From positions 144,303-208,302 of the IMG/VR virus record IMGVR_UViG_3300024239_000011: DNA of 64,000 nt. One strand, 5' to 3'. Positions within the stretch are counted from its first letter, which is position 1; every line of letters begins with the position of its first letter. The notes under the pieces were generated by a model that was given only the letters and a program-made list of their open reading frames with translations, was not told the origin of the DNA and did not search any database. Source of the stretch: a virus. The position numbers and the translations under genes are program-made. Below are positions 2,957-15,224 of this stretch, piece by piece.

Positions 2957-3033
<77 letters not shown>

Positions 3034-3034
3034 T

Positions 3035-3781
3035 TTATGAATATTGGTATACGCGAATTTTCTTAGTGAGGTCAAGATTATTTATCATTTCATCGGCTAA
3101 TTTTGTTGAAGATAGCCTGTAGTGTGTAGCGTCCTGTTTCACAAATGGATATCCACATGCATACGAGGCGATTTCAAATGCTTTTTGAACCTCAGTATTT
3201 TTCTGCACAAAATGCACATATGTATACCAACCTCCGTTCTTGAAGGTTTTATAAACTCCCCCATCAGTTTCAATCAAACCTTTGAGGAACATTTTAAGGT
3301 ATTCGTCGGCTGAATATATCCAATCAGGGACAACAAATCCGTTTGTATTTTTGTTCCCAACTGGAAGCGCAAGAGAATTTGGCAAATCTATCCCATAAAC
3401 ATAGATTTCAACACAATTCGCATTTTTGTGTTTTCTTTGTTTCGCCGTTTTTCCTGTAATTCTAGTTAATAGCGCCGTATATTCTTCAATAAGATATGGG
3501 TGTGATTGATCACATGATATGAGCAGTTTACAGGATCGTCCAGTTCGCGTCAGACATCCATCACCAGCAAAGACACCCATGAAATACGCCAAATCATTTG
3601 ATCTTTCCATTAAAAGAATTTGTTCTCGTTGTTTCGCTTGACGTTTTATTGTTGGACTTATACTTGGCAAATGACGAATGTGCCATCGCACAGTGGAAGG
3701 TGCTATTCCCAAGTCTTCTGCTATTTTTCGGATACTAAATCCATGCTCACGTAATGTAATACATTTCTTACCGATTTCCAT
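3035..3781 (-). CDS. LAGLIDADG-type homing endonuclease with N-terminal HTH
   Basis: 248 residues. Residues 1-35 form a resolvase-like helix-turn-helix (GFSIRKIAEDLGIAPSTVRWHI). Two LAGLIDADG motifs follow: YFMGVFAGDGCL (about 66-77, catalytic Asp at the end) and FLKGLIETDGGV (about 164-175). Spacing of about 100 residues is typical of single-chain LAGLIDADG enzymes. The gene is free-standing and ends 2 bp before a tRNA-Pro, an arrangement repeated at 11697. Inference: it cuts at or near a tRNA-Pro or neighbouring sequence and spreads by homing. Confidence 0.85.
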   Translation of the reverse strand: MEIGKKCITLREHGFSIRKIAEDLGIAPSTVRWHIRHLPSISPTIKRQAKQREQILLMERSNDLAYFMGVFAGDGCLTRTGRSCKLLISCDQSHPYLIEEYTALLTRITGKTAKQRKHKNANCVEIYVYGIDLPNSLALPVGNKNTNGFVVPDWIYSADEYLKMFLKGLIETDGGVYKTFKNGGWYTYVHFVQKNTEVQKAFEIASYACGYPFVKQDATHYRLSSTKLADEMINNLDLTKKIRVYQYS

Positions 3782-3923
3782 TGTAATACCTCTAGCACAT
3801 TTTGGCAGAGGTATTTATGAAGTTGGAACGGACGACGGGCAACAAACCCGCTTTGGGTAATGAGGTCAAATAACTTTGTCGGTGAATTATTTATGAAAGC
3901 CTCGCCCTTTGACGTATCTTCAC

Positions 3924-3931
3924 CATAAATA
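3924..3931 (+). promoter_or_regulatory. T4-type late promoter box
   Basis: CATAAATA, one mismatch from the T4 late core TATAAATA, about 27 bp before the ATG at 3958. Confidence 0.55.
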
Positions 3932-3957
3932 CCCGGAATGAGATTCGCGAGGGGAAT

Positions 3958-4212
3958 ATGAACTACGACGATTTCACTAAAATGGGTACCGAGGTCGAAG
4001 CCGAAGTTGCCGCTGAATACCGTTTCGAGAATGGCACGCCGTTCAAGCCACAATTTGTGGACGATTGTTCGCCTGCCTTGCAAGGTTATTTGCGTAGTAT
4101 GGATGACCCTGAAGTATTCCGATGCGAAACAGACCGTCTTGCCGCCGGGCTGGCGGATTGGATCGATGAGTTGGTTGAGGCGGGACTGATGAAAGCTGGT
4201 TCGGTCGCCTAG
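3958..4212 (+). CDS. hypothetical acidic protein (84 aa)
   Basis: Good ribosome binding site (GAGGGG, 4 bases before the ATG) and a late-promoter-like box upstream. The protein is acidic and helical (EVEAEVAAEYRFENG near the N-terminus, LADWIDELVEAGLM near the C-terminus). No family recognised. Ends just before a strong terminator. Confidence 0.75.
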   Translation: MNYDDFTKMGTEVEAEVAAEYRFENGTPFKPQFVDDCSPALQGYLRSMDDPEVFRCETDRLAAGLADWIDELVEAGLMKAGSVA

Positions 4213-4214
4213 AG

Positions 4215-4249
4215 AAAAACCCCCGGAAGCAATCCTTCCGGGGGTTTTT
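4215..4249. terminator. bidirectional terminator
   Basis: AAAAACCCCCGGAAG/CTTCCGGGGGTTTTT stem with CAATC loop. Confidence 0.85.
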
Positions 4250-4375
4250 GCTACTCAGGGCAGGGAGCAACCGATGTCCCTTTTTGCTCGAAGTTTCAGC
4301 GCCCGTAGGGGGGGTTCCGGTCACCGGGTTGCTAACTTCGGGCGCACCATAGGGGACCACGTAGGGGCTGTCAAG

Positions 4376-4855
4376 TCAGTCACATCCGCACGATGAAGAC
4401 CCACTATCGCACGAATAGCTGCTGCCGCTGTCGTAGGATGACGACGAACCGCAAGAGGACGACGAGAACGAGCTATCCCAGGACGACGTGATCGCTGACA
4501 CCGTAGAGGTGATCACGTCGTCATCGCTGGATGACCGCCGCCGAGTGTAATAATCATCACTGCTGTCGCTTGTACGCTGCGTAGTCGGGGCGGGCTTGGT
4601 CGGCGCCGAGGTGACCGGTTTCGACGGAGTATAAGGACGGTTCACTGTCGTCGCCGGGGCGACGGTTGGCGTAACCGAGACGGTCGGCGTTGGGTGGACA
4701 GATGTGATGAGCGCATCTTTGGTTTCTTGCCACGCCGCTTTCGTTGCGGCGCGTTTCCGCCGTTTGGTTATGACGTAGGCAAGCGTACCGAAACCGGCGG
4801 CACCGACCGCAGAGGACACAAAGATAATTTCAAGCATGAGAGAACACCTGATCAT
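4376..4855 (-). CDS. membrane-anchored Ser/Cys-rich protein
   Basis: 159 residues from the ATG at 4855 (GAGG seven bases upstream); an alternative ATG at 4837 removes six residues. Residues about 8-28 are a transmembrane segment (LEIIFVSSAVGAAGFGTLAYV) followed by a basic stop-transfer KRRKRAA. A Pro/Thr-rich linker (about 52-92) leads to an RRR patch and a low-complexity C-terminus of Ser, Asp and Cys repeats (SSCGSSSSYDSGSSYSC). Such tails occur in surface-exposed or metal-binding membrane proteins of unknown role. The start codon lies in a 12-bp hairpin (see 4839-4880). Confidence 0.7.
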   Translation of the reverse strand: MIRCSLMLEIIFVSSAVGAAGFGTLAYVITKRRKRAATKAAWQETKDALITSVHPTPTVSVTPTVAPATTVNRPYTPSKPVTSAPTKPAPTTQRTSDSSDDYYTRRRSSSDDDVITSTVSAITSSWDSSFSSSSCGSSSSYDSGSSYSCDSGSSSCGCD

Positions 4856-4880
4856 GACACTACCTCAACAATCAGGTGTT
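4839..4880 (-). promoter_or_regulatory. 12-bp inverted repeat enclosing a ribosome binding site
   Basis: AGAACACCTGAT and ATCAGGTGTTCT pair perfectly on the minus strand. The loop holds GAGG, and the first ATG (4855) sits at the foot of the stem, so the transcript of the membrane protein could hide its own start; alternatively the repeat is a repressor operator. Confidence 0.6.
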
Positions 4881-4893
4881 CTCTGGTATCCAG

Positions 4894-5619
4894 TCAATTT
4901 TCTGTTTGTCCGCAATAGGCTGCAATCAATTCGTCAACCAGAGCAGGCACGCCAGTAGTCGCAGTAGCATCGATCACTCGCGTGAAAACTTCATTCTCGG
5001 TCGGGATTGGATTTACCTCAATGATCTGGGCATTCCGTCTATTCATGCTTACCGCTTGCGCGAATAAACTGGCGGGCATGACTTGCCCGGATGTTCCAAT
5101 ACTGATGAAAATGTCAGTATGATCTAGAGCAGGTTCGATCAGTCCCAGATGATATGGCAGTTCCCCAAACCATACAACGTCGGGACGCATCGAACCGGTC
5201 GTGCGGCATGATGGGCAAACCATGTCTACCGAAGCATCGCCGTGATGAACGAGTTTTTCCTTGCAATTGGCGCATTTGAGTTTGAGCAGTTCTCCGTGCA
5301 TATGGGCAATGCTTTTAGAACCTGCCCGCTCGTGGAGGTCGTCAATGTTCTGGGTGATAATCACAAAGCCATTATTGCTAGGCCAAGCTTGCTCAAGCTT
5401 CGCTAAGGCGTAATGAGCCGCATTTGGTTCGACCGTTATTAGCTTGGCACGCCGTTCATTATAGAACCGATGTACCAATGCTGGATCGCGTTGAAATCCT
5501 TGTGGTGTGGCTACATCTTCAACTTTATGTTTTTCCCACAATCCCATACTGTCACGGAATGTAGGAATACCAGACTCGGCGCTAATACCAGCACCAGTCA
5601 AAATGACTATATTTGGCAT
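4894..5619 (-). CDS. sirtuin: NAD-dependent protein deacylase
   Basis: 241 residues, close to the length of bacterial CobB. NAD-binding motif GAGISAESGIPTFRD at residues 9-23, TQNIDDLHERAG at about 90-101, catalytic His in HMHGE at about 107, and a four-Cys zinc site (CANC near 117, CPSC near 136). FYNERR near residue 52 carries the Tyr-x-x-Arg pair that in E. coli CobB allows removal of acidic acyl groups such as succinyl. All catalytic residues are present. In a phage it could remove host acyl marks, alter NAD use, or counter NAD-based defence; these roles are inference. Confidence 0.92.
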   Translation of the reverse strand: MPNIVILTGAGISAESGIPTFRDSMGLWEKHKVEDVATPQGFQRDPALVHRFYNERRAKLITVEPNAAHYALAKLEQAWPSNNGFVIITQNIDDLHERAGSKSIAHMHGELLKLKCANCKEKLVHHGDASVDMVCPSCRTTGSMRPDVVWFGELPYHLGLIEPALDHTDIFISIGTSGQVMPASLFAQAVSMNRRNAQIIEVNPIPTENEVFTRVIDATATTGVPALVDELIAAYCGQTEN

Positions 5620-5733
5620 GGGGTTTGTCCTAATTTTCAGTTATCATAATATTTACTGCACAGTAAACATTGATGCTATTTAAAATACCAATATGGCTGA
5701 TTTAAAACGACACCATTCATCGGTAAATATTAT

Positions 5734-5937
5734 ATGTTCTATAGAGTGGTTAAATCATTCGATGATAAAGACCTGAATAAGGTTTTAATGATGGATACCC
5801 TCCCAAATATTGGTGGGATCATTCGGTTGCGTGATGGGCGTAAATTTAAGTTGTTGGACATCGAATGCGTCGAAATCGATGAAGGGTTTGGTGTGAAACG
5901 CTTCAAGATACGCGGCTGCCTTGAACGTCTATCCTAA
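5734..5937 (+). CDS. hypothetical protein (67 aa)
   Basis: Compact beta-rich small protein (IIRLRDGRKFKLLDIECVEID) that could form an SH3-like barrel. No recognisable ribosome binding site before the ATG. Its end overlaps the stop of the convergent 5934 gene by four bases. Family not recognised. Confidence 0.55.
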   Translation: MFYRVVKSFDDKDLNKVLMMDTLPNIGGIIRLRDGRKFKLLDIECVEIDEGFGVKRFKIRGCLERLS

Positions 5938-6320
5938 ACGAAGAACATGAAGTTCTCTTGAACGTGGATATTACGTTTTAAGAAGCTTTCGTTCATCGGG
6001 CATTCTTGGTCGAACGCCAGGACTAACGCTTCAGTCAGAGCGGGAACGTAATCACACCATGCAGGAATGGTTGTGAGGACATTCTTCGGAGCATTCGCCC
6101 AGATCACACACATCCGTTCCACAATGCTTGCCGCCAAAGCTTGCCGCACCGGGTCGGGGTATTGGGGATCGGGAATGTCGGAAGGGTTTAGTCCGTCCTC
6201 GTATAACGCCTGAATTTCGTCACGAAATTCGGTATCGCGGTCTGCGAGCAGATGTTCAACAATTGCATCGAGCCGTTTTGCGATATCCATGGGTTGCGCC
6301 TCACCGGGTTCCCCAAGCAT
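5934..6320 (-). CDS. hypothetical helical protein
   Basis: 128 residues from the ATG at 6320 (AAGGA nine bases upstream); a TTG three codons earlier is less likely. Acidic, mostly helical, with no motif recognised. Confidence 0.65.
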   Translation of the reverse strand: MLGEPGEAQPMDIAKRLDAIVEHLLADRDTEFRDEIQALYEDGLNPSDIPDPQYPDPVRQALAASIVERMCVIWANAPKNVLTTIPAWCDYVPALTEALVLAFDQECPMNESFLKRNIHVQENFMFFV

Positions 6321-6383
6321 ATCACTCAATCCTTCGAATTACAAGGCATTCAGGCTAAATATCCCAAACGATACGAGGGTATA

Positions 6384-6962
6384 ATGGCTGATAGTAAGAT
6401 CGAAAAACAACTGATCGTGAAAGCATTGAACCGGTTGGGTGATTTATTGGGTCAAAATAAGCGAAAATACACGCTAACATGTGCCGGGGGTATTGTTAGT
6501 TTGCTTTATTTCCAATCTCGCTCCAATACAGCGGATGTGGATGTGATGTTTCCCGAACCTTGGGAAGGCAGTTTGAAGCCATTAAAGCAATCCATTGAGC
6601 AGGTATCTAAGGAATTGAAACTACCAAAACGATGGATGAATGATAGTATTAAGTTTTTCGGTCTAGAAACTCGTGGTGATACTGTAATTTTCAAGCACCC
6701 AAACCTCACATTAGTTGCTGCAAAGTGGGAAGAATTGCTTGCCCATAAAGTAAAAGCATATCGCGATGAGCGTGATTATCGTGATGCTCTCTTGATTATG
6801 CGAGAGATCGGGGCTACTGATAAAGAAACACTATGGGATGATGTGGTAAAATATGCCCCGACTATACCACGTATTTCTAAAGAAGAATTGCGTCGCCGCT
6901 TTGACAAAATATGGATCGGGGCGGGAATGCTTGAAGAACGTTTGCAAGCACGGTACAAGTAA
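6384..6962 (+). CDS. nucleotidyltransferase-fold protein (AbiEii/DUF6036-like)
   Basis: 192 residues from the ATG at 6384, preceded by GAGGG. The block TCAGGIVSLLYFQSRSNTADVDVMFPEPW has the Gly-Gly turn and Asp-x-Asp metal pair of MNT/AbiEii-type nucleotidyltransferases; KWEELLAHKVKAYRDERDYRDALLI further on is the helix typical of that group. Members include toxin halves of toxin-antitoxin or abortive-infection pairs. No antitoxin-like partner is seen beside it, so its role is open. A CTAAATA box lies about 26 bp upstream and a strong terminator follows. Confidence 0.7.
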   Translation: MADSKIEKQLIVKALNRLGDLLGQNKRKYTLTCAGGIVSLLYFQSRSNTADVDVMFPEPWEGSLKPLKQSIEQVSKELKLPKRWMNDSIKFFGLETRGDTVIFKHPNLTLVAAKWEELLAHKVKAYRDERDYRDALLIMREIGATDKETLWDDVVKYAPTIPRISKEELRRRFDKIWIGAGMLEERLQARYK

Positions 6963-7002
6963 AAAATTAGCCTCTGGTGGATTACCAGAGGCTAATTTTT
7001 TA
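6961..7002. terminator. bidirectional terminator
   Basis: AAAAAATTAGCCTCTGG paired with CCAGAGGCTAATTTTTT around a TGGATTA loop, between convergent genes. Confidence 0.9.
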
Positions 7003-7371
7003 CTTCATGATGCCACGCGCAAGCTCTTTAACTTCATGGGTCGTCGGTTGGAAAACCTCAAAAATTCGCGGCAAACTATTTACCGGATCACAATTACCAC
7101 ACATGAAAATGTCAATGGCGGCATACCCAATTTCCGGCCATGTATGAATTGAAATGTGACTCTCGGAAAGCGCAATTACGCCAGTAACGCCGTATTCTTC
7201 AGTGCGACCAAAGTGATGGAAGAAATCCCCCAACACGGTCGCCCCGGCATCCTTCGCCGCTTCAATGAGGGTATGCCGGATCAGATCGTCGTTGGTCAAG
7301 ATTTCCGGGGAAACCCCGTTTAAATCGATTAGATAGTGCAGACCAGCGCAGCGAACTGAGCGAAATTTCAT
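7000..7371 (-). CDS. speD: S-adenosylmethionine decarboxylase proenzyme (SpeD, short class)
   Basis: 123 residues, the usual size of the short bacterial class 1B enzyme. SESHISIHTWPE at about 68-79 contains the Ser that becomes the pyruvoyl group by self-cleavage and the active-site His; MCGNCDP near 90-96 holds the catalytic Cys. The enzyme makes decarboxylated S-adenosylmethionine for spermidine synthesis. Together with the ornithine-decarboxylase-type gene at 57694 it gives the phage two of the three steps from ornithine to spermidine; a spermidine synthase is not in this window. Confidence 0.93.
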   Translation of the reverse strand: MKFRSVRCAGLHYLIDLNGVSPEILTNDDLIRHTLIEAAKDAGATVLGDFFHHFGRTEEYGVTGVIALSESHISIHTWPEIGYAAIDIFMCGNCDPVNSLPRIFEVFQPTTHEVKELARGIMK

Positions 7372-7523
7372 GGTACTTCCCCCTTCTAATAGCGTGGTTG
7401 CCGCTATTTATGCCTATTAGAAGGGGATGTATATACCCAAAACGTAGTGTTAGGTCAAGGACGCAATATAATGACTGCATCGGATTGCATGCGTTATGAT
7501 ATACTGAAACATTGGAGAGGCGC

Positions 7524-8045
7524 ATGGAATATTTCTTGGTTTATATGGCTGGGCTGGTAACGACCCCGATATTTGTGGGGCTGATTTTCGTGATAAAAGA
7601 TATATATGACAAGAAACGTGAATATCGGCGCTCGGAGCGCGATAATTACGAGGAATTTCCGGCACTTACGGAACCGAATTTCGATGTGAACACTCTATAT
7701 CCACTCGATGAGGATGATATGGAAGCCGCCTTTACTGCGCTTCCCCGTCCAATCCCATTTGATCCAAAAACATTTGAAGATTTGCGTTTCATTGATGATG
7801 TGGGTATGCAGACGATGCTTCGTCATATCGATAAAGATACGGTTGCAATGGCGCTCAAAGGTGCCAGTAATGCCACCAAGCATAAGTTCTTCGAAAATAT
7901 GTCTAAGCATGCCGGAAAGTATCTTCACTACGATATGCAAACTATGGGACCGTTACGCCTACGTGATGTTGATGACGCGCAGAAAACGATTTTTAAGATA
8001 TACAAAGAATTGTCTTCTGGCGGTCATATCCCCAAAATTGGATGA
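7524..8045 (+). CDS. membrane-anchored FliG C-terminal domain protein
   Basis: 173 residues from the ATG at 7524 (GGAGAGG upstream). Residues about 2-24 form one transmembrane segment (LVYMAGLVTTPIFVGLIFVI), followed by a charged linker. Residues about 82-170 match the C-terminal domain of the flagellar motor switch protein FliG: TFEDLRFIDDVGMQTMLR, then VAMALKGAS, KFFENMSKHAG, MGPLRLRDVDDAQKTIFKI. In FliG this domain carries the torque helix that meets the MotA stator. The FliG N- and middle domains are missing. Inference: a membrane-tethered decoy that acts on the host flagellar motor. Confidence 0.85.
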   Translation: MEYFLVYMAGLVTTPIFVGLIFVIKDIYDKKREYRRSERDNYEEFPALTEPNFDVNTLYPLDEDDMEAAFTALPRPIPFDPKTFEDLRFIDDVGMQTMLRHIDKDTVAMALKGASNATKHKFFENMSKHAGKYLHYDMQTMGPLRLRDVDDAQKTIFKIYKELSSGGHIPKIG

Positions 8046-8103
8046 CATTTGACTTCCTTGAGTTGATCTGGTACTTTCTCCCCGAACTAGACGGAGAAAG
8101 ACG

Positions 8104-8697
8104 ATGAACTTCCATCGGGAAGTTGAAACCACGATTACGTTGACCCAGCACCCGCGCTGGAAATATGGATCGCTGGTCTTGCATAATAAGAACCACGAGC
8201 CGGAATGGCATCTACAACTCATCGATTATGATGGCGCCACGGGCGCCACTGGTGTCTTCACAAGCGAACAAGAAGCGATGGATAACCTTGACGGGTTCCT
8301 TGATCTGGCGCTGCGTGCGTATGATGCGAAATACGCCAAGTACCCGCACAAGTACGGCTATCCGACTATCCAACTAAAGGATGGCAAGCTGGTCATGACC
8401 CTGGAAAAGGATGAAAGGTACGATCACTATATCACTGTAGGTGACGTGGTGACGGTTCCCGGTTATACACGCCACTGGGTCGCCCTGTACGTCACCCAAA
8501 CCATGATTGATAACGAGGAATGTGATGCCAGTCGGGAAGGTCTGCATCTGTGTGGCGGTATGTGGTACGGCAACGAACCATTCTCGATCAAAAGCTACGG
8601 TAAGATGATCGAAGCCCCCGAAGATGAAAGCACTATGACTCTGATTGGGCATGCCGCTGGCTTCGATCACGAAACCCTCAGGAAAATGGTAGAATGA
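8104..8697 (+). CDS. hypothetical protein (197 aa)
   Basis: GGAG eight bases before the ATG. Mixed alpha/beta composition; residues 1-90 look like one small domain (WHLQLIDYDGATGATGVFTSEQEAMDNLDGFL), residues 100-190 another with several Cys and His. No family recognised. Its stop overlaps the ATG of a 42-residue frame, so the two are probably coupled. Confidence 0.75.
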   Translation: MNFHREVETTITLTQHPRWKYGSLVLHNKNHEPEWHLQLIDYDGATGATGVFTSEQEAMDNLDGFLDLALRAYDAKYAKYPHKYGYPTIQLKDGKLVMTLEKDERYDHYITVGDVVTVPGYTRHWVALYVTQTMIDNEECDASREGLHLCGGMWYGNEPFSIKSYGKMIEAPEDESTMTLIGHAAGFDHETLRKMVE

Positions 8698-8822
8698 TTA
8701 ATAAACGCCGTCACCCTCGATTTCCCTGTGCCAAACCCGGCACGATGTTTCGGGATAGCGACTTGCAACTAACCACCGTGGTATACCATGGTCAGTATGA
8801 CAGTGTATGGCATTCATTGTGA
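8694..8822 (+). CDS. small basic protein (42 aa), coupled
   Basis: ATG overlaps the previous stop (ATGA). The frame begins MINKRRHPRFPCAKPGTMF and stays open for 42 codons. Followed by a strong terminator at 8871. No family recognised. Confidence 0.45.
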   Translation: MINKRRHPRFPCAKPGTMFRDSDLQLTTVVYHGQYDSVWHSL

Positions 8823-8870
8823 ATTCCTGTCGGAACTATCCGACACCACGATTGACTACCTCCTGAAATG

Positions 8871-8901
8871 AAAAAAGCCGGGCTTTCGCCCGGCTTTCTT
8901 T
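8871..8901. terminator. bidirectional terminator
   Basis: AAAAAAGCCGGG stem with a CTTT-containing loop and CCCGGCTTTCTTT, between convergent genes. Confidence 0.85.
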
Positions 8902-9430
8902 ATTCCGCCAGCTTCAACATGCTGGTGATGTATCGGAACATCGGGTCAGTCTTGGTCCCGAGAACCCACCCGAAGGTGATTTGCTCTCGCATGCACAGAA
9001 CTTTGTCGCCCTGTTTCACTTCCCATACCACCTGAACCTTGGTAGGGTCGAGGAAGCGTGCCGTCTCGATATCCACGAACCAGGGATAGGTGGGGTCAAC
9101 CACGATATCCGCAACGTAGCCCATGGCTTTGGCGGCGGTGATCACCATTTCGATTTGCTTGGTGGTGGCGTCTAAAGTGGTGCAGGTATTGAAACCTTTG
9201 GCCCCATTCGCTTTACCATCTTCGATGTACAGCTTCACGTCCGGGTGGTCGGTGTACAGCAGTATTTGGTTACCGCAGTGGACGCCGTGCGCACCTACTT
9301 TACCGCCCTTCGACCCCTGACCATTCGGCTCACGCAGCGACGGTACATCAGTGGGGATCAGCCCATAGATGGTCAGGTCGCCCGGCTTGCGCGGTGCGTT
9401 AGGATCGATTTTACCAACCAGTTCAGTCAT
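8900..9430 (-). CDS. hypothetical protein (176 aa)
   Basis: Start chosen at the ATG at 9430, which has GAGGACGTG upstream. The region GKVGAHGVHCGNQILLYTDHPDV followed by helices and VVDPTYPWFVDIETARFL looks faintly like the peptidyl-tRNA hydrolase Pth2 fold (lysine-glycine helix start, later strand and Thr), but the conserved Pth2 catalytic pattern is not clear, so no function is assigned. It flanks the tRNA array, which is why the comparison was made. Confidence 0.65.
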   Translation of the reverse strand: MTELVGKIDPNAPRKPGDLTIYGLIPTDVPSLREPNGQGSKGGKVGAHGVHCGNQILLYTDHPDVKLYIEDGKANGAKGFNTCTTLDATTKQIEMVITAAKAMGYVADIVVDPTYPWFVDIETARFLDPTKVQVVWEVKQGDKVLCMREQITFGWVLGTKTDPMFRYITSMLKLAE

Positions 9431-9565
9431 AGTCACGTCCTCGACAAATTTGGTGAAATATACGACCAATCAAGGACGTTTGGCAATGGTGGATGAATCG
9501 AGTCTCGAACGCGCGTTACAAATGCCGTGATGACATCTGCACATTTCCTAACGTTCACCCGCTAT

Positions 9566-9642
9566 TGGTCGGAGTGGGCGGTTTCGAACCGCCGATCTCA
9601 TGCGCCCCATGCATGCGCGTTAGACCACTACGCTACACCCCG
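9566..9642 (-). tRNA. tRNA-Pro(GGG)
   Basis: Acceptor CGGGGTG/CACTCCG, anticodon stem CATGC/GCATG with loop ATGGGGC (anticodon GGG), T-loop TTCGAAA, A73 and encoded CCA. Anticodon arm is identical to the copy at 11618. Confidence 0.88.
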
Positions 9643-9650
9643 TTGAAGAT

Positions 9651-9727
9651 TGGTAGGAACGGCGGGGGTCGAACCCGCAGCATCACTGGTTCTACGCCAA
9701 TGTGGTCTACCGATTGCCTACGTTCCC
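9651..9727 (-). tRNA. tRNA-Leu(TAG)-like, short variable loop, G33
   Basis: Acceptor GGGAACG/CGTTCCT, Leu-type D-loop (AATCGGTAGA), 6-bp anticodon stem CATTGG/CCAGTG with loop CGTAGAA, variable region of about 5 bases, T-loop TTCGACC, A73, CCA encoded. Reading 34-36 gives TAG (Leu), but position 33 is G where U33 is nearly universal, so it may be damaged. Confidence 0.7.
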
Positions 9728-9747
9728 ATATGTGTTAAACTAATCCG

Positions 9748-10053
9748 ATGCGATTTCTACGACGACCCACCCACAACACGTTCACACGAATGCTTCAATC
9801 GGCTACGTTCGGAACCGTGAAGGGGTTGACTCATCCAGATGGCGTGTTCCTATGGGATGCCTATTATGCCGACCATTCTACGGCGGACGGGCACCTAGGG
9901 ATTGATTTGATAGCTGGATACGCCGACGAAACGGTGGCACCATTCATCATCACCCATGAATTCGATGGGGTAATTAGCATTGACGATCTATCGGTCATCC
10001 CACGGCTTCCGTTTCTGTCGAAATATCAGATCATCACCGCAGAAGAAATTTGA
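9748..10053 (+). CDS. hypothetical protein (101 aa)
   Basis: Only plus-strand frame in this part of the tRNA array with protein-like composition. Basic N-terminus (MRFLRRPTHNTF), then FGTVKGLTHPDGVFLWDAYYADH and a beta-rich C-terminal half. No clear ribosome binding site, no family recognised. Confidence 0.5.
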   Translation: MRFLRRPTHNTFTRMLQSATFGTVKGLTHPDGVFLWDAYYADHSTADGHLGIDLIAGYADETVAPFIITHEFDGVISIDDLSVIPRLPFLSKYQIITAEEI

Positions 10054-10254
10054 CGCCAGACCGACTCATAGGCACATTACGCATACCGCTCGTTTTGCCG
10101 GGTGGGGAAGGTACTTGCGATGTGGCTGTATTCCTAGGGTGAGAGCAAGCGTCTGACTAAGGGTAGTTCGGGAAGCGATTCAGTAATGGTCAATTGCCGC
10201 CACGTCGTCCCTAATTTGGGTTATCATTACCCGTAAATTACCCATCTTGCTCAT

Positions 10255-10282
10255 GAAACCCCCGGCAATTGCCGGGGGTTTC
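10255..10282. terminator. terminator-like hairpin
   Basis: GAAACCCCCGGCAATTGCCGGGGGTTTC is close to a perfect palindrome with short A- and T-tracts. It separates the 9748 gene from the permuted tRNA-like gene. The 200 bases before it (10054-10254) hold no convincing gene. Confidence 0.7.
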
Positions 10283-10289
10283 ATTTGTA

Positions 10290-10432
10290 TTGACCAGTTA
10301 AGGTGCCGTGATTTGCGTTTTCACGCCTGATCCAATTCAGGTGGCTTTACCATTCGCCCACTTCCCGGTAAATGGTCGGGAAGGGAGGATTCGAACCTCC
10401 AATTTGCTGTAATCACAACGAGTTCTGGTCAA
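10290..10432 (-). ncRNA. circularly permuted tRNA-like gene, copy 1
   Basis: Read on the minus strand, the tRNA 3' half comes first: T-arm GGAGG-TTCGAAT-CCTCC, acceptor 3' strand CTTCCCG and ACCA. After only five bases (TTTAC) the 5' half follows: acceptor 5' strand CGGGAAG, D-arm with GGTAAA, and a CCTGA/TCAGG anticodon arm with a 6-base loop ATTGGA. The ends pair with each other: TTGACCAG with CTGGTCAA, and GTTGTGATT with AATCACGGC (with G-U pairs). A GCGT-GAAA-ACGC hairpin lies after the anticodon arm. So the break is in the variable region and the acceptor end is closed. C1-G72 and A73 look proline-like. See copy 2 at 17947 for covariation. Confidence 0.75.
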
Positions 10433-10475
10433 TTCTGATAGATGACATTTATCATTTCGTATGGTACAATGCGTC

Positions 10476-10958
10476 ATGCTTGTTACGATCTTCGCGGACG
10501 CATCTTTCTGTCCGAAAACTTTCGCTGCTGGTTGGGCAGCCTGGATAAAATCCGAACGCGGCACTTATCGGGGTGATGGCGCGATGAAAACCATTGTCCC
10601 GGACAACAACCTTGCTGAACTGTATGCCGTGATTAATGCAATCAAGCTGGCATTCGTTTCGGAAGTGGCAGTAGCCGGGGATACGCTGTTGGTGGAAGCA
10701 GATAATCATCGTGCCTTGGCGATCCTAGCAAACCGAGGAAAGAACCTCACTATCCTCGAAAAGAAAGCCGCTACACTACTCAACGGATTGCGCTCAACGT
10801 ATGACTTCACCATCAAACCTAGACACGTAAAGGCGCACTGCGGGACTGCGGTACCGCGCACGTGGGTCCATGATGATTGTGACAAACGCGCTAAGGCACG
10901 AATGCAAGAAGCGCGTGAGAAATTGGTGCCCCCGACCGGATTCGAACCGGTACCTTGA
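10476..10958 (+). CDS. ribonuclease H-type protein
   Basis: 160 residues from the ATG at 10476 (an ATG five codons earlier is possible; neither has a good ribosome binding site, but TGACAT and TACAAT with a 16-bp gap lie just upstream). The RNase H acidic set is visible: FADAS (Asp 7), NNLAELYAV (Glu), VEADN (Asp) and HDDCDKRAK near the end. In T4 an RNase H removes primers; this one is the RNase HI fold type rather than the T4 FEN-type enzyme. Its last codons run into the tRNA-Leu on the other strand (10924). Confidence 0.8.
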   Translation: MLVTIFADASFCPKTFAAGWAAWIKSERGTYRGDGAMKTIVPDNNLAELYAVINAIKLAFVSEVAVAGDTLLVEADNHRALAILANRGKNLTILEKKAATLLNGLRSTYDFTIKPRHVKAHCGTAVPRTWVHDDCDKRAKARMQEAREKLVPPTGFEPVP

Positions 10959-11001
10959 CGGGATTTAAAGCCGTTGCCACTGCCAATTGCGCTACGGGGG
11001 C
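10924..11001 (-). tRNA. tRNA-Leu(TAA), short variable loop
   Basis: Acceptor GCCCCCG/CGGGGGC, D-loop AATTGGCAG (Leu-like), anticodon loop TTTAAAT (TAA) on stem ACGGC/CCCGT with a C-C mismatch at its top, variable region of 7 bases instead of a long arm, T-stem ACCGG/CCGGT, A73, CCA encoded. Confidence 0.8.
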
Positions 11002-11006
11002 GAAAA

Positions 11007-11014
11007 ACTAAATA
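11007..11014 (+). promoter_or_regulatory. T4-type late promoter box
   Basis: ACTAAATA, 5 bp before the ATG at 11020. Confidence 0.4.
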
Positions 11015-11019
11015 GAGTC

Positions 11020-11217
11020 ATGAACTACGACATCAACTCCGGTATTGGTAATTGGATGAAGAAGCGCGAGACGCACCTTCACAATCACTTTGGCGATCAA
11101 TGGCGCAATACCCTTTGTCGCCGGGTCCACCAGAGCTTGAAGCAAGGCATCCGGACAAGAAACGCATTTCGGCAGCGTGTTCTTAAGGCGCTTTTGCAGC
11201 ACCTTAAAGGAAGATGA
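11020..11217 (+). CDS. small basic protein (65 aa)
   Basis: Starts at the ATG at 11020, directly after an ACTAAATA box. Very basic (Arg, Lys, His), helical, with NHFGDQWRNTLCRRVHQSLKQ in the middle; nucleic-acid binding is possible. No family recognised. Confidence 0.6.
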   Translation: MNYDINSGIGNWMKKRETHLHNHFGDQWRNTLCRRVHQSLKQGIRTRNAFRQRVLKALLQHLKGR

Positions 11218-11263
11218 CAACAAGCATCCCATCCGCTATATTGGATGGATTGGAGTTTGTGTC

Positions 11264-11467
11264 ATGCTTAAGAAACATCGCGAATACCTGAAGATTGCAG
11301 AACCGATACTCAAGGAAGCGCACATTCCAGTGATAACCTGTAATGGAGGTCGTCACGTTGCGCTGATGATAAATGGGCATCGGGTTCCCATGTCCGGGTC
11401 ATCCCCGGATAAATTCGCCGCTGATCTTCGTAGGATCATCCAACGCGGCAGGAATGAGGGGAAGTAG
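11264..11467 (+). CDS. HicA-like small protein
   Basis: 67 residues from the ATG at 11264. The pattern GGRHVALMINGHRVPMSGSSPDKFAADLRRII matches the small dsRBD-like fold of HicA and related phage proteins (basic strand pair followed by SPsD and an Arg-rich helix). HicA toxins cleave mRNA and use a His in this region (GRH here). No HicB-like antitoxin is adjacent, so a toxin role is not supported by context. Confidence 0.55.
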   Translation: MLKKHREYLKIAEPILKEAHIPVITCNGGRHVALMINGHRVPMSGSSPDKFAADLRRIIQRGRNEGK

Positions 11468-11528
11468 AGGCATCGAACCTCGCACCTTGCGGTGCCCCTG
11501 TGCCGCTCACCAATACGGTAGCCCTTCC
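11460..11528 (-). pseudogene. tRNA-Ser remnant without anticodon arm
   Basis: Acceptor GGAAGGG, D-arm (CTACCG...CGG), a variable-arm hairpin GGCACC-GCAA-GGTGC and T-loop TTCGATG resemble the tRNA-Ser(GGA) at 13527, but the whole anticodon arm is missing and CCA is not encoded. It overlaps the 3' end of the HicA-like gene. Confidence 0.55.
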
Positions 11529-11534
11529 ATGAAA

Positions 11535-11611
11535 TGGTTCCGGGGAGAGGATTCGAACCTCAAACTTTCCTGATTCAAAGTCAGGCGGCCAGACCAACCA
11601 GCTACCCCGGA
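11535..11611 (-). tRNA. tRNA-Gln(TTG)
   Basis: Acceptor TCCGGGG/CCCCGGA, anticodon stem CCTGA/TCAGG with loop CTTTGAA (TTG), short variable loop, T-loop TTCGAAT, CCA encoded. U1-A72 fits Gln; discriminator is A rather than the usual G73. Confidence 0.9.
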
Positions 11612-11617
11612 TTAAAA

Positions 11618-11692
11618 TGGTCGGAGTGACAGGATTTGAACCTGCGACCTCATGCGCCCCATGCATGCGCGCTTCCACTGCGCTACACCCCG
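11618..11692 (-). tRNA. tRNA-Pro(GGG), second copy
   Basis: Acceptor CGGGGTG/CACTCCG, anticodon loop ATGGGGC (GGG), T-loop TTCAAAT, A73, CCA encoded. Starts 4 bp after the stop codon of the PD-(D/E)XK endonuclease gene. Confidence 0.9.
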
Positions 11693-11696
11693 TTAA

Positions 11697-12353
11697 TCAC
11701 CAAATCAAATCCTCGACAAAATTCATACCGGATTTCAACCCATTCTTTGGTGGATTGTATCTAACCGTGAATGTGGTTTTTCCCAGGCAACTATCTGGAA
11801 GTCTTATTACTTTGTCTATTAACGGCAAATACACCAAAATAAGATCAATTTCTGCCGCAGAATACGTCAAAACTTTTCCATTTCCATGATCAGACACAAG
11901 GTTGATTACTATACTTCCCTGTGCTTTATCAGATTTTCCGTTTGCGTATTTTACCTGAACTCGCTTTAGTTTCTCGCCATCGTCAAGCACAAAATCATAA
12001 CGAACATCGGTAGTTGGCTTACTCAATACATACCCAAGTTCAGCAGCACGTATTTGGATTTTCAACGCCGCAATTTCACCACGCAAATTAGTGGTAAGGT
12101 TTTCATGCAACGCCTTATGCTCGATCAAACCATATTGTTCGCATCGACGCTGAAAATCATCTGCATTTTTCTTATTCACCGCACGAGCATTTTCTTGCAA
12201 ACGAGATTTTAGAATTTCAGCCTGCAATGGATAATCGCGAAGCCAATAACTTGCTGTGCTTTTCGACACATTCAGTTCGGCGGATATTTCTGCCAGTGAT
12301 TTATTCTGTTTACGTAATTCTATTGCTTTTTCTCGTTCCGTTATTTTTGTCAT
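11697..12353 (-). CDS. HTH plus PD-(D/E)XK homing-type endonuclease
   Basis: 218 residues. Residues about 1-40 form a helix-turn-helix (KSLAEISAELNVSKSTASYWLRDYP) like the one in the LAGLIDADG protein at 3035. The C-terminal half has E near 107, DVRYDFVLDDGEKLKRVQVKYA (about 117-138), i.e. the Glu, Asp and Gln-x-Lys of a PD-(D/E)XK nuclease core. The gene is free-standing and, like 3035, ends directly before a tRNA-Pro. Inference: a homing endonuclease that uses the tRNA-Pro region as its insertion niche. Confidence 0.75.
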   Translation of the reverse strand: MTKITEREKAIELRKQNKSLAEISAELNVSKSTASYWLRDYPLQAEILKSRLQENARAVNKKNADDFQRRCEQYGLIEHKALHENLTTNLRGEIAALKIQIRAAELGYVLSKPTTDVRYDFVLDDGEKLKRVQVKYANGKSDKAQGSIVINLVSDHGNGKVLTYSAAEIDLILVYLPLIDKVIRLPDSCLGKTTFTVRYNPPKNGLKSGMNFVEDLIW

Positions 12354-12421
12354 TTTCGAACCCTTGACCTATTACTGGTTATATTTAGGTCAAGGGTTCG
12401 AAAATTATATCGGATGTTATT

Positions 12422-12515
12422 TGGCGGAAGACGGAGGTCTTGATCCCCAACCGCAGGGTCACTGCGATCACACTCCTTAGCAGGGAGGTCTAGGCACTCG
12501 CCTAGTTCATCTTCC
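12422..12515 (-). tRNA. tRNA-Ser(GCT), 8+4 allo-tRNA-like fold
   Basis: Acceptor is 8 bp (GGAAGATG/CGTCTTCC), T-stem 4 bp (GGGG/CCTC), G73 and CCA encoded. The D-arm is a 6-bp stem with a 4-base loop (CTAGGC-GAGT-GCCTAG), as in tRNA-Sec. Anticodon loop CTGCTAA gives GCT. Long variable arm present. T-loop ATCAAGA lacks T54. This matches the described 8/4 allo-tRNA class. Confidence 0.75.
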
Positions 12516-12520
12516 AAAAA

Positions 12521-12606
12521 TGGTTCCGGGAGTAGGAGTCGAACCTACACAGGGCGTTCGCCCCCGCATTCAAAGTGCGGTGTCCTACCAATTAGACGAT
12601 CCCGGA
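12521..12606 (-). tRNA. tRNA-Gln(TTG) with long variable arm
   Basis: Acceptor TCCGGGA/TCCCGGA, Gln/Glu-type D-arm (TCGTCTAATTGGTAGGAC), anticodon stem CCGCA/TGCGG with loop CTTTGAA (TTG), then a variable region of about 15 bases that can form GGGCG-AAC-GCCC, T-loop TTCGACT, A73, CCA encoded. A long variable arm is unusual for Gln. Confidence 0.85.
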
Positions 12607-12611
12607 TCAAT

Positions 12612-12698
12612 TGGCGGAAAGCGGGGTACTCGAAACCCAGACCACGAGGGTCCACATCGCTTAGCAGGCGAGTCCGTGCCCTGCACGGTTCACTTTCC
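12612..12698 (-). tRNA. tRNA-Ser(GCT), 8+4 allo-tRNA-like fold, second copy
   Basis: Acceptor 8 bp (GGAAAGTG/CGCTTTCC), T-stem 4 bp (GGGT/ACCC) with normal loop TTCGAGT, D-arm CCGTGC-AGG-GCACGG (6 bp, minimal loop), anticodon loop CTGCTAA (GCT), long variable arm, G73, CCA encoded. Confidence 0.78.
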
Positions 12699-12710
12699 AT
12701 GTGAATTGAG

Positions 12711-12774
12711 TGGTCTGCTGCGCACCGTTCTTCTGTTCGGCGTCTTTGCACATGGGCGCGACCCATGACAGCAG
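12711..12774 (-). ncRNA. tRNA-like RNA without anticodon arm
   Basis: On the minus strand CTGCTG pairs with CAGCAG and is followed by A and CCA. Inside are two hairpins, ATGGG-TCGCG-CCCAT and CGCCG/CGGTG with a 10-base loop, but no anticodon arm. It lies between a tRNA-Ser and the end of the HisRS-like gene. It may be a remnant or a small tRNA mimic. Confidence 0.4.
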
Positions 12775-12783
12775 AAATTGTGG

Positions 12784-13408
12784 CTATTTCAGCGCCAATC
12801 GCAGCCGATCAACACCGATAGCCCAACCAATACCTTCAGCGTAGCGTCCGCCACCAGCAACCTGTTTCTGGGCACCAAGCGAGGAAACCTCCACCTCGAA
12901 CCCATCTTCGACGTAGTACGTCAGCCCACGTTTCACCGATTCCACGAAGGTGTATTCGACCGGCAACGCATCGAGGCATCGCCGCAACAACTCCGTGACT
13001 TCTTCCGTGTCCGCTGGACCAGACCCGCCGAGCAGTTCGACCCCAAACTGAGTGAACTCGCGGTACCTTCCCGCTTGGGGGCGCTCGTAGCGATAGCACC
13101 GGTTACAATAGAACAGGCGCATCGGCTTTTTAGGCTTGATCTTGCTCCATTGGTCCCGATATAGCTCCTGAACCAAGCCAGTCACTTCCGGGATCAAACA
13201 GACTGGGCGATTGCCCTTATCGTTGAAAGCCCACATCTGGTTTACGATCTCGGGACCAGCCTTATCGATGAAGGTTTGCTGTTCCCAGATTTCCGGAAGA
13301 ATTACTTCCTCGAAACCAGCTTCAGTGAACTACCCTCCGAACAGTATCGATGATCATGCGGTATTGACGAGCGTCATCGCCCATCAGGACTTGTGTGCCT
13401 CGCAACAT
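12784..13408 (-). CDS. compact HisRS-like catalytic core, interrupted by a +1 frame break
   Basis: Two frames join to one class II synthetase core of about 207 residues. The first frame begins MLRGTQVLMGDDARQYR (ATG 13408, AAAGG upstream) and stops at TGA (13322-13324) after ..RRVVH. The +1 frame continues EAGFEEVILPEIWEQ, then motif 2 region CYRYERPQAGRYREFTQFGVE, the HisA block KRGLTYYV, and AGGGRYAEGIGWAIGVDRLRLAL (HisA2 and motif 3). The insertion domain and the C-terminal anticodon-binding domain of normal HisRS (about 420 residues) are absent. The tRNA-His at 13434 lies 26 bp upstream in the same direction. The break has a GGAGGG element before CAC-TGA. It could be programmed frameshifting, a mutation, or a sequencing error. 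Confidence 0.75.
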
Positions 13409-13433
13409 TGTCTTGCCTTTCGTTTGCGTAGTT

Positions 13434-13510
13434 TGGGGTGGCTGACGGGGTACGATCCCGCAACCTTCGCAGTCACAGTGCGACGCTCTACCAATTGAGC
13501 TACAGCCACC
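13434..13510 (-). tRNA. tRNA-His(GTG)
   Basis: Extra G(-1) opposite C73, acceptor GTGGCTG/CAGCCAC, anticodon stem TCGCA/TGCGA with loop CTGTGAC (GTG), CCA encoded: canonical His identity. T-loop is ATCGTAC, so T54 and A58 are swapped to A54 and T58. Directly upstream of the HisRS-like gene. Confidence 0.9.
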
Positions 13511-13526
13511 ACAGAAATTAAAGAAT

Positions 13527-13619
13527 TGGCGGAAGGGAAGGGACTCGAACCCCCAAACCCCCTTGCGGAGATCAAACACCTTTCCAAGGTGCGCTGTTCG
13601 CCAGTACAGTAGCCCTTCC
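13527..13619 (-). tRNA. tRNA-Ser(GGA)
   Basis: Conventional type II serine tRNA: acceptor GGAAGGG/CCCTTCC, anticodon stem GCACC/GGTGT with loop TTGGAAA (GGA), long variable arm, T-loop TTCGAGT, G73, CCA encoded. Confidence 0.9.
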
Positions 13620-13644
13620 ATGGTAACTATTGTTACCATTTAAT

Positions 13645-13721
13645 TGGTCGGTGTGGAGGGACTTGAACCCCCATGATAACCTGTCCCCGAGACAGGTGGC
13701 TTACCATTGGCCCACACACCG
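13645..13721 (-). tRNA. tRNA-Pro(CGG)
   Basis: Acceptor CGGTGTG/CACACCG, anticodon stem CCTGT/ACAGG with loop CTCGGGG (CGG), T-loop TTCAAGT, A73, CCA encoded. Confidence 0.92.
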
Positions 13722-13723
13722 GT

Positions 13724-13814
13724 TGGCGGAAATTGATGGCATCGAACCATTGACCCTACTTAGGTGTCACCATCGTTTTCAAGACGATTTAGGGAGCCAA
13801 CCCTGGCAATTTCC
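13724..13814 (-). tRNA. tRNA-Ser(TGA), 8+4 fold
   Basis: Acceptor 8 bp (GGAAATTG/CAATTTCC), T-stem 4 bp (ATGG/CCAT), D-arm AGGG-TTGGCT-CCCT with a short loop, anticodon stem ATCGT/ACGAT with loop CTTGAAA (TGA), variable region of about 20 bases, G73, CCA encoded. Sister of 17439 and 17544. Confidence 0.85.
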
Positions 13815-13822
13815 ATTGAAGT

Positions 13823-13870
13823 TGGTGCGGCGGACAGAGATCGACCCTGCACTACCAAATTCCAACAGTA
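13823..13870 (-). pseudogene. tRNA 3'-half fragment
   Basis: Ends GTCCGCCGCACCA with a weak T-arm (CAGGG, TCGATC) but no matching 5' acceptor strand before the neighbouring tRNA-Pro. Best read as a remnant. Confidence 0.35.
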
Positions 13871-13949
13871 TGGTCGGCGCGGCGAGATTCGAACTCGCGA
13901 TCTCGTGTTCCCGAAACACGCGGGGACGACCAGACTCCCCTACGCACCG
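13871..13949 (-). tRNA. tRNA-Pro(CGG), second copy
   Basis: Acceptor CGGTGCG/CGCGCCG (one G-U), D-arm GGGGAGTCTGGTCGTCCCC, anticodon stem CGTGT/ACACG with loop TTCGGGA (CGG), T-loop TTCGAAT, A73, CCA encoded. Sequence differs from the copy at 13645. Confidence 0.9.
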
Positions 13950-14042
13950 TTACCTGTTGACAAGGCACCACGAGGTGCCTACACGTTGAAAATCTCGGCA
14001 CCAGGGCTTCGGCGCCCTTATTTGGTGGGAAGTCCCATGAAA

Positions 14043-14109
14043 TGGTGCGGTCGAGGGGACTTGCCATGCGTGTCTGAGACGCACCTGTATACCATTCCAG
14101 CACGACCGC
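14043..14109 (-). pseudogene. degenerate tRNA-Leu(CAG)
   Basis: Acceptor GCGGTCG/CGACCGC, Leu-type D-arm and anticodon stem TGCGT/ACGCA with loop CTCAGAC (CAG) are intact, A73 and CCA are encoded. The long variable arm and the 5' strand of the T-stem are missing (only TGGCAAGT remains before CCCCT), giving 67 bases. Compare the intact tRNA-Leu(GAG) at 14539. Confidence 0.65.
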
Positions 14110-14111
14110 GA

Positions 14112-14140
14112 TTGACTTAATGAATTACTTGGTGTATAGT
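14112..14140 (+). promoter_or_regulatory. sigma70-type promoter
   Basis: TTGACT, 17 bp, TATAGT; 25 bp before the ATG at 14165. Confidence 0.75.
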
Positions 14141-14164
14141 ATTGGTTCAACGGGAGAGCAGCCC

Positions 14165-14527
14165 ATGAACCCGAAAGAACGCGAACAAGCATTGTGCGCT
14201 TTGTACAGCAAGTACAAGGACGAACCGCTGAAGGCGCTCGAAGAGTTCTTCGAAATCAGTTCGCACGATTGGCTGCTCAACTATCGCCACGAAGGCGAAT
14301 GTCTCGATCCCCACATTTACACGTGGGTCGAATTCGAAGCGTTGAACGACCCCCGCATCTATGGCAGCTTCAAGGTGATTTCTAAATCGTCCCTGGTGGG
14401 AAGAAAGTTCGAAATCCGTTGGCATTGGGACGGCGGTCTTCCGAACATGTTGTTGCCCGTGATCCGCTTCACCGATGTCTGGTTCCTGCCACGAGAAATG
14501 AAGTACGTGCAGCGAGAGGCAGCATAG
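14165..14527 (+). CDS. hypothetical protein (120 aa)
   Basis: Starts at the ATG at 14165 behind GGGAG and a strong promoter; the frame open from 14120 has no such support. Acidic N-terminal helix (EREQALCALYSKYKDEPLKALEEFF), then an aromatic-rich domain with several Trp. No family recognised. It is one of few plus-strand genes inside the minus-strand tRNA array and has its own promoter. Confidence 0.8.
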   Translation: MNPKEREQALCALYSKYKDEPLKALEEFFEISSHDWLLNYRHEGECLDPHIYTWVEFEALNDPRIYGSFKVISKSSLVGRKFEIRWHWDGGLPNMLLPVIRFTDVWFLPREMKYVQREAA

Positions 14528-14538
14528 TTTATAGATGG

Positions 14539-14625
14539 TGGTGCGGCTGACTGGACTCGAACCAGCACGGGAAATTCTTCCCCAGGCTTCTCAGACCTGT
14601 GTGTATACCATTCCACCACAGCCGC
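14539..14625 (-). tRNA. tRNA-Leu(GAG)
   Basis: Acceptor GCGGCTG/CAGCCGC, anticodon stem CAGGT/GCCTG with loop CTGAGAA (GAG), proper long variable arm GGGAA-GAAT-TTCCC, T-loop TTCGAGT, A73, CCA encoded. The only conventional type II leucine tRNA here. Confidence 0.93.
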
Positions 14626-14631
14626 ATTGTT

Positions 14632-14787
14632 CTATTCGCGTTCGTCGCGGTAATTCCGATACGCCGCGAAGATGGTGTCCTCACCAAGGTCAGTGATTTC
14701 CGGTGAAACCTTCTCGACATCAAGTGAAGCGACCACGATCACTACCTTCCCTTCCGGGGTAAGGTACGCTTTGTCTTGAACCAACAT
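14632..14787 (-). CDS. small protein (51 aa)
   Basis: Starts MLVQDKAYLTPEGKVVIVVASLD at 14787; beta-rich first half and acidic helical tail (YRNYRDERE). Weak GGAT-type ribosome binding site. Lies between tRNA-Leu and the tmRNA-like gene. No family recognised. Confidence 0.5.
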   Translation of the reverse strand: MLVQDKAYLTPEGKVVIVVASLDVEKVSPEITDLGEDTIFAAYRNYRDERE

Positions 14788-14802
14788 GTTGAAATCCAAA
14801 AA

Positions 14803-15021
14803 TGGTGGAGGCGAGGGGATTCGAACCCCCGTAGACCGCATAGACCCAAGCATTACCAAGGGCTGGACTTAGGTTTAGAACTTTGGGTGCCCGCTGACAG
14901 CTTTCGGAAGCCAGAAGGTCGGTCCAAACGAACCCCAAATCCACTTGCGCATGCGTCCCGGTTTTACCCGAGCCGTTGTTCTGTTCCACGGTGCCTATGC
15001 CGAACTCAGGCGGACGCCCCC
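14803..15021 (-). ncRNA. ssrA: tmRNA-like RNA (one-piece), tag not resolved
   Basis: 219 bases. The ends form an alanine-tRNA-like acceptor GGGGGCG/CGCCTCC with A73 and encoded CCA and a T-arm GGGGG-TTCGAAT-CCCCT. The 3' end (GCCTCCACCA) is the classic tmRNA end. No anticodon arm; instead GCATAG near the 5' end pairs with CTATGC before the T-arm, as helix P2 of tmRNA, and a TGAGTTCGGC segment stands where the reduced D-loop lies. About 145 bases of structured insert follow. I could not fix the tag frame; one frame runs ATG CGC AAG to a TAA. It is shorter than usual (about 350), so pseudoknots may be missing. Confidence 0.6.
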
Positions 15022-15075
15022 AAATGTTTGACCCATACAAGGATCAGGCAGTTTTGACCCTTGTGGGTCAAAAAT

Positions 15076-15160
15076 TGGTTCCGGGTGATGGACTCGAACC
15101 ACCACAAGGTTTTCACCCACGCATTCAGAGTGCGTTGACCTACCATTAGTCGAACCCGGA
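15076..15160 (-). tRNA. tRNA-Gln(CTG) with long variable arm
   Basis: Acceptor TCCGGGT/ACCCGGA, D-arm CGACTAATGGTAGGTCA, anticodon stem ACGCA/TGCGT with loop CTCTGAA (CTG), variable region of about 15 bases with GGGT-GAAA-ACCT, T-loop TTCGAGT, A73, CCA encoded. Confidence 0.87.
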
Positions 15161-15167
15161 TCAAAGC

Positions 15168-15199: not shown

Positions 15200-15224
15200 T
15201 GCCAAGGGAAACCTGTGTTGTTGA

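Follow-up and report, generated by a model that had tools for sequence, protein, structure and literature searches.

What use might a virus have for the C-terminal domain of the flagellar rotor protein FliG, apparently held on a membrane anchor and separated from the rest of that protein? The question is raised by a reading frame in a stretch of 64,000 nucleotides (hereafter, the window) covering positions 144303–208302 of the 543,035-base virus record IMGVR_UViG_3300024239_000011. The original prediction assigned the gene to a phage, and its setting agrees with this: among the gene products of the window are two proteins of the sheath family, one of them the tail sheath protein itself (4.6e-275), as well as a head–tail adaptor and a major head protein (1.3e-98), and the record is a jumbo phage contig, which may be incomplete.

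The window also contains 23 predicted tRNA genes, 22 of them clustered, with 18 out of 22 reaching the Rfam tRNA score; the cluster strongly favours CNN codons, namely those for Pro, Leu, Gln, and His, and also includes Ser and Tyr. Other genes of the window encode a Sir2-type NAD-dependent deacetylase and two decarboxylases, both possibly polyamine genes; one of two similar TnpB-like ORFs, named by reading only, lies here as well (Table 1).

Table 1. Location of the features discussed in the text. Plain positions refer to the window; L numbers denote separately extracted loci.
Feature	Location	Strand	Remarks
Anchored FliG_C gene	7524-8045	+	ORF, ATG start, 173 aa; Pfam FliG_C 3.2e-26
Shine–Dalgarno-like GGAGAGG	7514-7520	+	3 bases 5' of ATG; read from sequence
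Predicted transmembrane helix, residues 6-24, then basic stretch	7539-7595	+	Kyte–Doolittle
Linker, basic then acidic, residues 25-82	7596-7769	+	Mostly low-confidence in model
FliG C-terminal (torque) domain, residues 83-169	7770-8030	+	Pfam, AlphaFold, Foldseek
Predicted tRNA gene cluster	2957-18484	-	22 genes
Sir2-type NAD-dependent deacetylase	4894-5619	-	7.8e-48
S-adenosylmethionine decarboxylase	7000-7371	-	
Ornithine/arginine/DAP-type decarboxylase	57694-58836	+	
TnpB-like ORF	47571-48746	-	391 aa
TnpB-like ORF	L088:1215-2390	+	391 aa
Full-length FliG, 338 aa (L001)	~306.7-307.7 kb of record		FliG_N, FliG_M, FliG_C present
Arginine-tRNA-protein transferase homologue	L084:11086-11829	-	ATE_N, ATE_C; adjoins phage fliG
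FliM, 441 aa (L088)	68.3-69.7 kb of record		TIGR01397 equivalog passed
PopZ-family-like stretch of phage FliM	L088:8337-8480	+	NF052660, 8e-7, residues 12-48
FliN1, 98 aa, and FliN2, 75 aa (L088)	directly after FliM		One tight gene run
CheY-like genes, two (L091, L092)	127 and 324 kb of record		NF007901 best of all models
Third receiver-like gene	L093:1423-1890, at 464 kb of record	-	Weak match, 31.3 bits
MotA derivative, 150 aa	L091:1863-2315		NCBIfam MotA1 TIGR03818, 1.4e-17
FliG_M-only and FliM_M-only genes of the second phage (G001)	L003:5989-6896	+	Overlapping frames
SS-4 MotA-like/FliG_C gene run	L124:8204-11743 (contig G007:C73)	-	Two out of three fused to FliG_C

Anatomy of the anchored FliG_C protein

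Judged by sequence, the FliG_C identity of the domain is far beyond chance. The Pfam match (PF01706) scores 92.1 bits against a gathering score of 23.3; 11 distinct FliG sequences from PDB match the protein, the best being 1qc7_A (9.7e-19); and the landmarks ALKGA, NMS, GP-x-RL, and QK-x-I, by which the domain had been recognized at the outset, are all present. The NCBIfam fliG model (TIGR00207) matches with 1.5e-21 over profile positions 240–326 of 338, and the score, 77.1 bits, is below the whole-FliG cut-off of 226.7. FliG_C is the sole FliG domain: the profile search found neither the N-terminal nor the middle domain, which are responsible for FliF and FliM binding and for ring formation. 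In PHROGs, no family was found for this protein. Structure prediction, the check proposed along with the original assignment, yielded the FliG_C fold. The AlphaFold model, built from an alignment including 19 host FliG_C rows, has pLDDT of 92–97 across blocks 81–170, and Foldseek superimposes the modelled domain on FliG_C of T. maritima (1qc7_B) with 1.2 Å and TM 0.95 by target, and on stator-bound (MotAB) FliG_C (8ucs_H) with 1.4 Å and TM 0.90.

In place of the N-terminal and middle domains, the protein has a helix and a linker. It contains a single hydrophobic segment, residues 6–24 (19-residue Kyte–Doolittle mean of 2.22), modelled as a helix with low confidence and directly followed by KDIYDKKREYRRSER, rich in basic residues. 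By the positive-inside rule, this basic stretch predicts a cytoplasmic C-terminus, and FliG_C should thus face the cytosol. The earlier suggestion that one transmembrane helix replaces the rest of FliG therefore stands as regards the helix and is incomplete as regards a linker of about 55 residues, with pLDDT of 53–67 over ten-residue blocks 21–80. The GGAGAGG motif upstream of the start codon is a plausible ribosome-binding site.

The likeness to FliG_C extends to the torque-helix region and to three out of five torque residues. We take the latter to be K264, R281, D288, D289, and R297 in E. coli numbering, mapped here by motif; the anchored copy has K, H, Y, D, and R, respectively, retaining positions K264, D289, and R297. 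At R281, Arg is found in 72 out of 73 host sequences, and at D288, Glu or Asp is found in all 73. Moreover, out of 42 host-conserved columns in these 73 sequences, 11 are changed. Taking together the changes at R281 and D288 and in the conserved columns, the anchored domain may grip MotA weakly or in a changed manner. The FliG of the same phage (52% identity) is not more similar to the domain than host FliG (46–55%), and the source of the domain is not placeable on the FliG_C tree, where it forms a very long branch (6.66).

Other motor proteins of the phage and their composition

Flagellar-motor genes occur at five or more separate places of the record. The full-length FliG scores 273.8 bits, above the TIGR00207 equivalog cut-off, and is 80% identical to FliG of Magnetospirillum sp. 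UT-4; on the FliG_C tree it groups among Magnetospirillum FliG, without strong support. Only two of the 42 host-conserved columns are changed in it, and by its sequence it looks fit to work rather than jam. Comparison of the phage gene with a host fliG (L004) over 335 codons reveals 119 codons changed synonymously and 68 with a changed amino acid.

The phage FliM scores 275.9 bits against the TIGR01397 cut-off of 219.6. Its N-terminal LNQDEIDSLLGF is identical to that of 10 hosts and its middle domain is nearly unchanged; the C-terminal FliN-like domain has diverged from the hosts (n = 10), and the N-terminus is extended by a PopZ-family-like stretch absent from all 10 host FliM frames, the match being under the family cut-off (30.4 vs. 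125 bits). Both FliN proteins exceed the TIGR02480 cut-off of 84.05 bits (101.9 for FliN1 and 87.4 for FliN2), and the start codon of FliN2 begins at the last base of the FliN1 stop codon. Across the six rows listed, FliN1 shares 71–74% identity with its nearest host FliN. FliN2, which has no N-terminal part, shares 53% identity with FliN1. Overall, FliG, FliM, and FliN1 of the phage are about 71–80% identical to host proteins.

Two further genes encode CheY-like proteins, both below the NF007901 cut-off (154.5 and 121.0 vs. 189 bits). In the third receiver-like protein, the N-terminal acidic pair is missing by reading, and this protein may be a degenerate receiver.

The MotA derivative overlaps the CheY-like gene at 324 kb, its start codon beginning with the final base of that gene's stop codon. 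It scores 63.8 bits, below the TIGR03818 cut-off of 303.8; no Pfam family was named, PF01618 being absent, and no match was found among PDB sequences. A whole-genome search with this protein gave matches in nine out of 10 bacterial genomes, the miss being G011. Aligned to nine host MotA proteins, it consistently shows exactly two conserved stretches, about 45–58% identical: residues approximately 4–79 correspond to the loop after TM2, and residues approximately 88–139, to the tail after TM4. Both cytoplasmic stretches of the flagellar stator protein are thus kept, while TM1–2 and TM3–4 are gone; at KD19 ≥ 1.6, no hydrophobic segment was found in the phage protein, compared with eight overlapping ones in one host protein. 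Lacking all four transmembrane helices, the phage MotA is unable to contribute to an ion channel. In the helix region bearing the charges that face FliG, the sequence is FKLAKTKGDLALESH in the phage protein and in eight out of nine hosts, and FRLAKTKGDLALESH in the remaining one (L112). We take the positions of MotA Arg-90 and Glu-98, and of FliG Asp-289 and Arg-281, on the phage proteins to be those indicated by the E. coli motifs. These MotA residues have been reported to meet these FliG residues (PMC7564593).

Profiles of MotA_ExbB, MotB_plug, and YscJ_FliF had no match anywhere in the 543-kb record. Thus, the phage carries parts that touch the switch, and pieces of such parts, rather than a whole motor with a recognized stator channel or MS-ring; an unrecognized or off-contig gene is possible.

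Assembly mix-up or bacterial contamination can be discarded, as the motor genes lie among phage genes at separate places and have phage-like composition. Tail-fibre-like genes occur near fliG, and the neighbours of fliM and of one CheY-like gene match PHROG families, RNA ligase among them; one neighbour of the CheY-like/MotA pair (L091) had no match in PHROG. GC3 ranges from 0.43 to 0.65 in eight phage motor genes and from 0.49 to 0.66 in five other phage genes, against 0.84–0.94 in five host fliG genes, and hence the motor genes are resident phage genes. The gene adjoining phage fliG encodes an arginine-tRNA-protein transferase homologue.

Relatives in other viruses and in the probable host

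In a second phage, IMGVR_UViG_3300035698_035310 (359 kb), another pair of fragments is found: a FliG middle domain of 130 residues (5.4e-17), the stop codon of which overlaps the start of a FliM middle domain of 172 residues (2.8e-22). These middle domains only are present; profile searches of this phage gave no match to FliG_C, FliMN_C, receiver, FliF, or MotB_plug, and nothing was found with the membrane-less MotA as a query. Neighbours of the pair include virion structural proteins and SmpB. As FliG_M pairs with FliM_M in the C-ring (according to the titles of PDB 4fhr and 4qrm), the second phage also keeps both halves of one contact. It was the sole contig found by scanning viral contigs for relatives; these scans require exact short peptides and therefore do not establish that viral relatives are rare.

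In INPHARED, the full FliG was matched by five records, FliM by one, and the phage MotA by none. The FliM match, MaAM05, has fliM beside pomA, murJ, and acdA, and looks like bacterial DNA. The same applies to the FliG match MT835480, with the gene order fliF-fliG-fliH-fliI (names by reading). Four Listeria "phage" records, 3.6–15 kb in length, are also among the matches.

The cellular proteins closest to the phage motor parts are of the Magnetospirillum type, and, by this similarity only, the host is probably a Magnetospirillum-like bacterium. In 10 Rhodospirillales-type genomes, the best matches of the anchored protein fall in frames of 340–364 residues, that is, of whole-FliG length. The exception is a 21-kb contig of Magnetospirillum sp. 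SS-4 with three adjacent MotA-like genes lacking TM1–2; in the longest of their products, no hydrophobic segment was found at KD19 ≥ 1.6. Like the phage, this run combines separate MotA cytoplasmic stretches with FliG_C pieces, and it differs in lying on a bacterial contig and in joining both faces in one chain in two out of three proteins. Thus, the clade of the probable host also has MotA-face and FliG_C pieces in chimeric form. The longest chimera ends in MDETLAGIRAILAE, which by eye resembles the PopZ-like stretch of phage FliM, and the run is adjoined by a gene for a TrkA_N-RyR protein.

Possible roles of the viral motor parts

We consider it somewhat more probable than not (roughly 0.55) that the anchored FliG_C is one of a set of viral motor parts acting as decoys or a brake. 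If expressed, the anchored domain would present the rotor face at the membrane and dock on MotA of host stators, and the 150-residue MotA would present the stator face loose in the cytosol and dock on FliG of the host rotor; by occupying the two halves of the torque interface, the two would uncouple or brake the motor. The FliM–FliN–FliN unit, the full-length FliG, and the two CheY-like proteins could become part of the switch complex or shift its bias. Two observations on the motor itself are relevant here. When FliG_C without the rest of FliG is tethered to MotA through an unstructured linker, it docks between the MotA subunits of a whole stator (PMC11302681); the FliG_C of this stator complex, PDB 8ucs, is the one matched by the phage domain with TM 0.90. 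In the phage, the membrane anchor could take the place of that fusion and keep the domain near the stator. In running motors, FliM and FliN are exchanged together, as one unit (PMC4161238), which gives the phage FliM–FliN a way in.

Proteins acting at the same contact are known in bacteria. In B. subtilis, the proposed target of the clutch EpsE is FliG, whose contact with MotA it would distort (PMC3000366), so that a motor can be stopped by a protein acting there; for YcgR (PMC12713396), too, action on the rotor with disturbance of the MotA–FliG contact has been proposed. In contrast to the phage proteins, both are bacterial and are not motor pieces, EpsE being a relative of glycosyltransferases.

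The presence in the record of the membrane-less MotA, FliG, FliM, two FliN, and two CheY-like genes strengthens the decoy interpretation. Competition for stators or locking of the motor, as suggested for the anchored domain in the original prediction, is weakened by the change of two torque residues. Three further points count against decoys: the two of them, if made together, would bind each other, the full-length FliG gives the impression of a working part, and the motor genes are scattered, so that their joint action is something we infer.

The main competing explanation is that the phage rotor and switch parts keep the infected cell motile and able to find nutrients during the shut-off of host genes. 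It accords with the scores of FliG, FliM, FliN1, and FliN2 above the NCBIfam cut-offs, with the level of identity to host proteins, and with a precedent, the motA and motB genes of glacier and ocean viruses, for which the same interpretation has been given (PMC8290583). Still, it seems unlikely to us, as it leaves unexplained a MotA without membrane helices and a FliG_C without the ring-forming domains; the lack of MotB_plug and MotA_ExbB matches in the record and the divergence of the FliM C-terminal domain also speak against it.

Improbable, too, is a non-flagellar re-use, in which a C-ring-like scaffold, perhaps polar, would place the sites of phage replication or assembly. The PopZ-family stretch on phage FliM, missing from the host frames, hints at this, but with its score under the cut-off we keep it only as a lead, and the parts of FliM that bind CheY and contact FliG are as in flagellar proteins, which points to the motor. 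We give equally little credit to the possibility that these are passenger or decaying host genes with no function in the phage. Although their places are scattered and one receiver-like protein looks degenerate, every frame is open and of phage-like composition, amino acids have been kept despite codon change in phage fliG (the comparison with L004 above), and the second phage retains a different pair of fragments. Finally, a role in countering Zorya, in which ZorA and ZorB form a 5:2 complex (PMC11890865), or another defence built on a MotA-like stator is very improbable, given that PADLOC returned no match for either the phage MotA or the anchored FliG_C and that the conserved stretches of this MotA are so similar to flagellar MotA. 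The flagellar MotA and MotB themselves assemble at the same 5:2 ratio.

Returning to decoys and switch parts, a broader and more tentative version would be a multi-part take-over: the phage might swap the host FliM–FliN, override CheY, and clamp the stator–rotor interface with place-swapped decoys, deciding whether and how the cell swims, and the FliG_M/FliM_M pair of the second phage might be a stripped-down form attacking the next interface inward.

Viral motA and motB are already in print (PMC8290583). Those viruses are similar in having motor genes on virus contigs, and differ in that their products are membrane-embedded stator proteins read as help to the host, whereas here we see rotor and switch parts along with trimmed pieces. 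Phage control of host surface machines is also exemplified by the type IV pilus inhibitor of a filamentous phage (PMC8764522), which has another target, and by RNA-guided TldR acting on flagellin (PMC13418256), which is transcriptional; in the cited parts of these papers, the proteins are not described as motor mimics. Our search of open PMC full text, a collection that excludes subscription papers and most preprints, retrieved no viral FliG/FliM/FliN set, membrane-less viral MotA, anchored FliG_C, or split rotor/stator decoys, and the jumbo-phage papers searched by term did not mention chemotaxis, flagella being named in one of them, solely as a receptor or in the titles of references.

Taken as a whole, the data suggest that the phage jams or steers the motor of the infected cell. 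If this is true, viruses have divided the flagellar motor at the surfaces where its parts naturally meet and turned the resulting pieces into inhibitors, a new phage route to controlling host behaviour in infection; motor genes on viral contigs then need not mean help to the host, unlike what has been proposed for viral motA and motB. Such pieces would be genetically encoded, evolution-tested probes of the MotA–FliG and FliG–FliM contacts, and would provide a test of which motor surfaces suffice to stop the motor.
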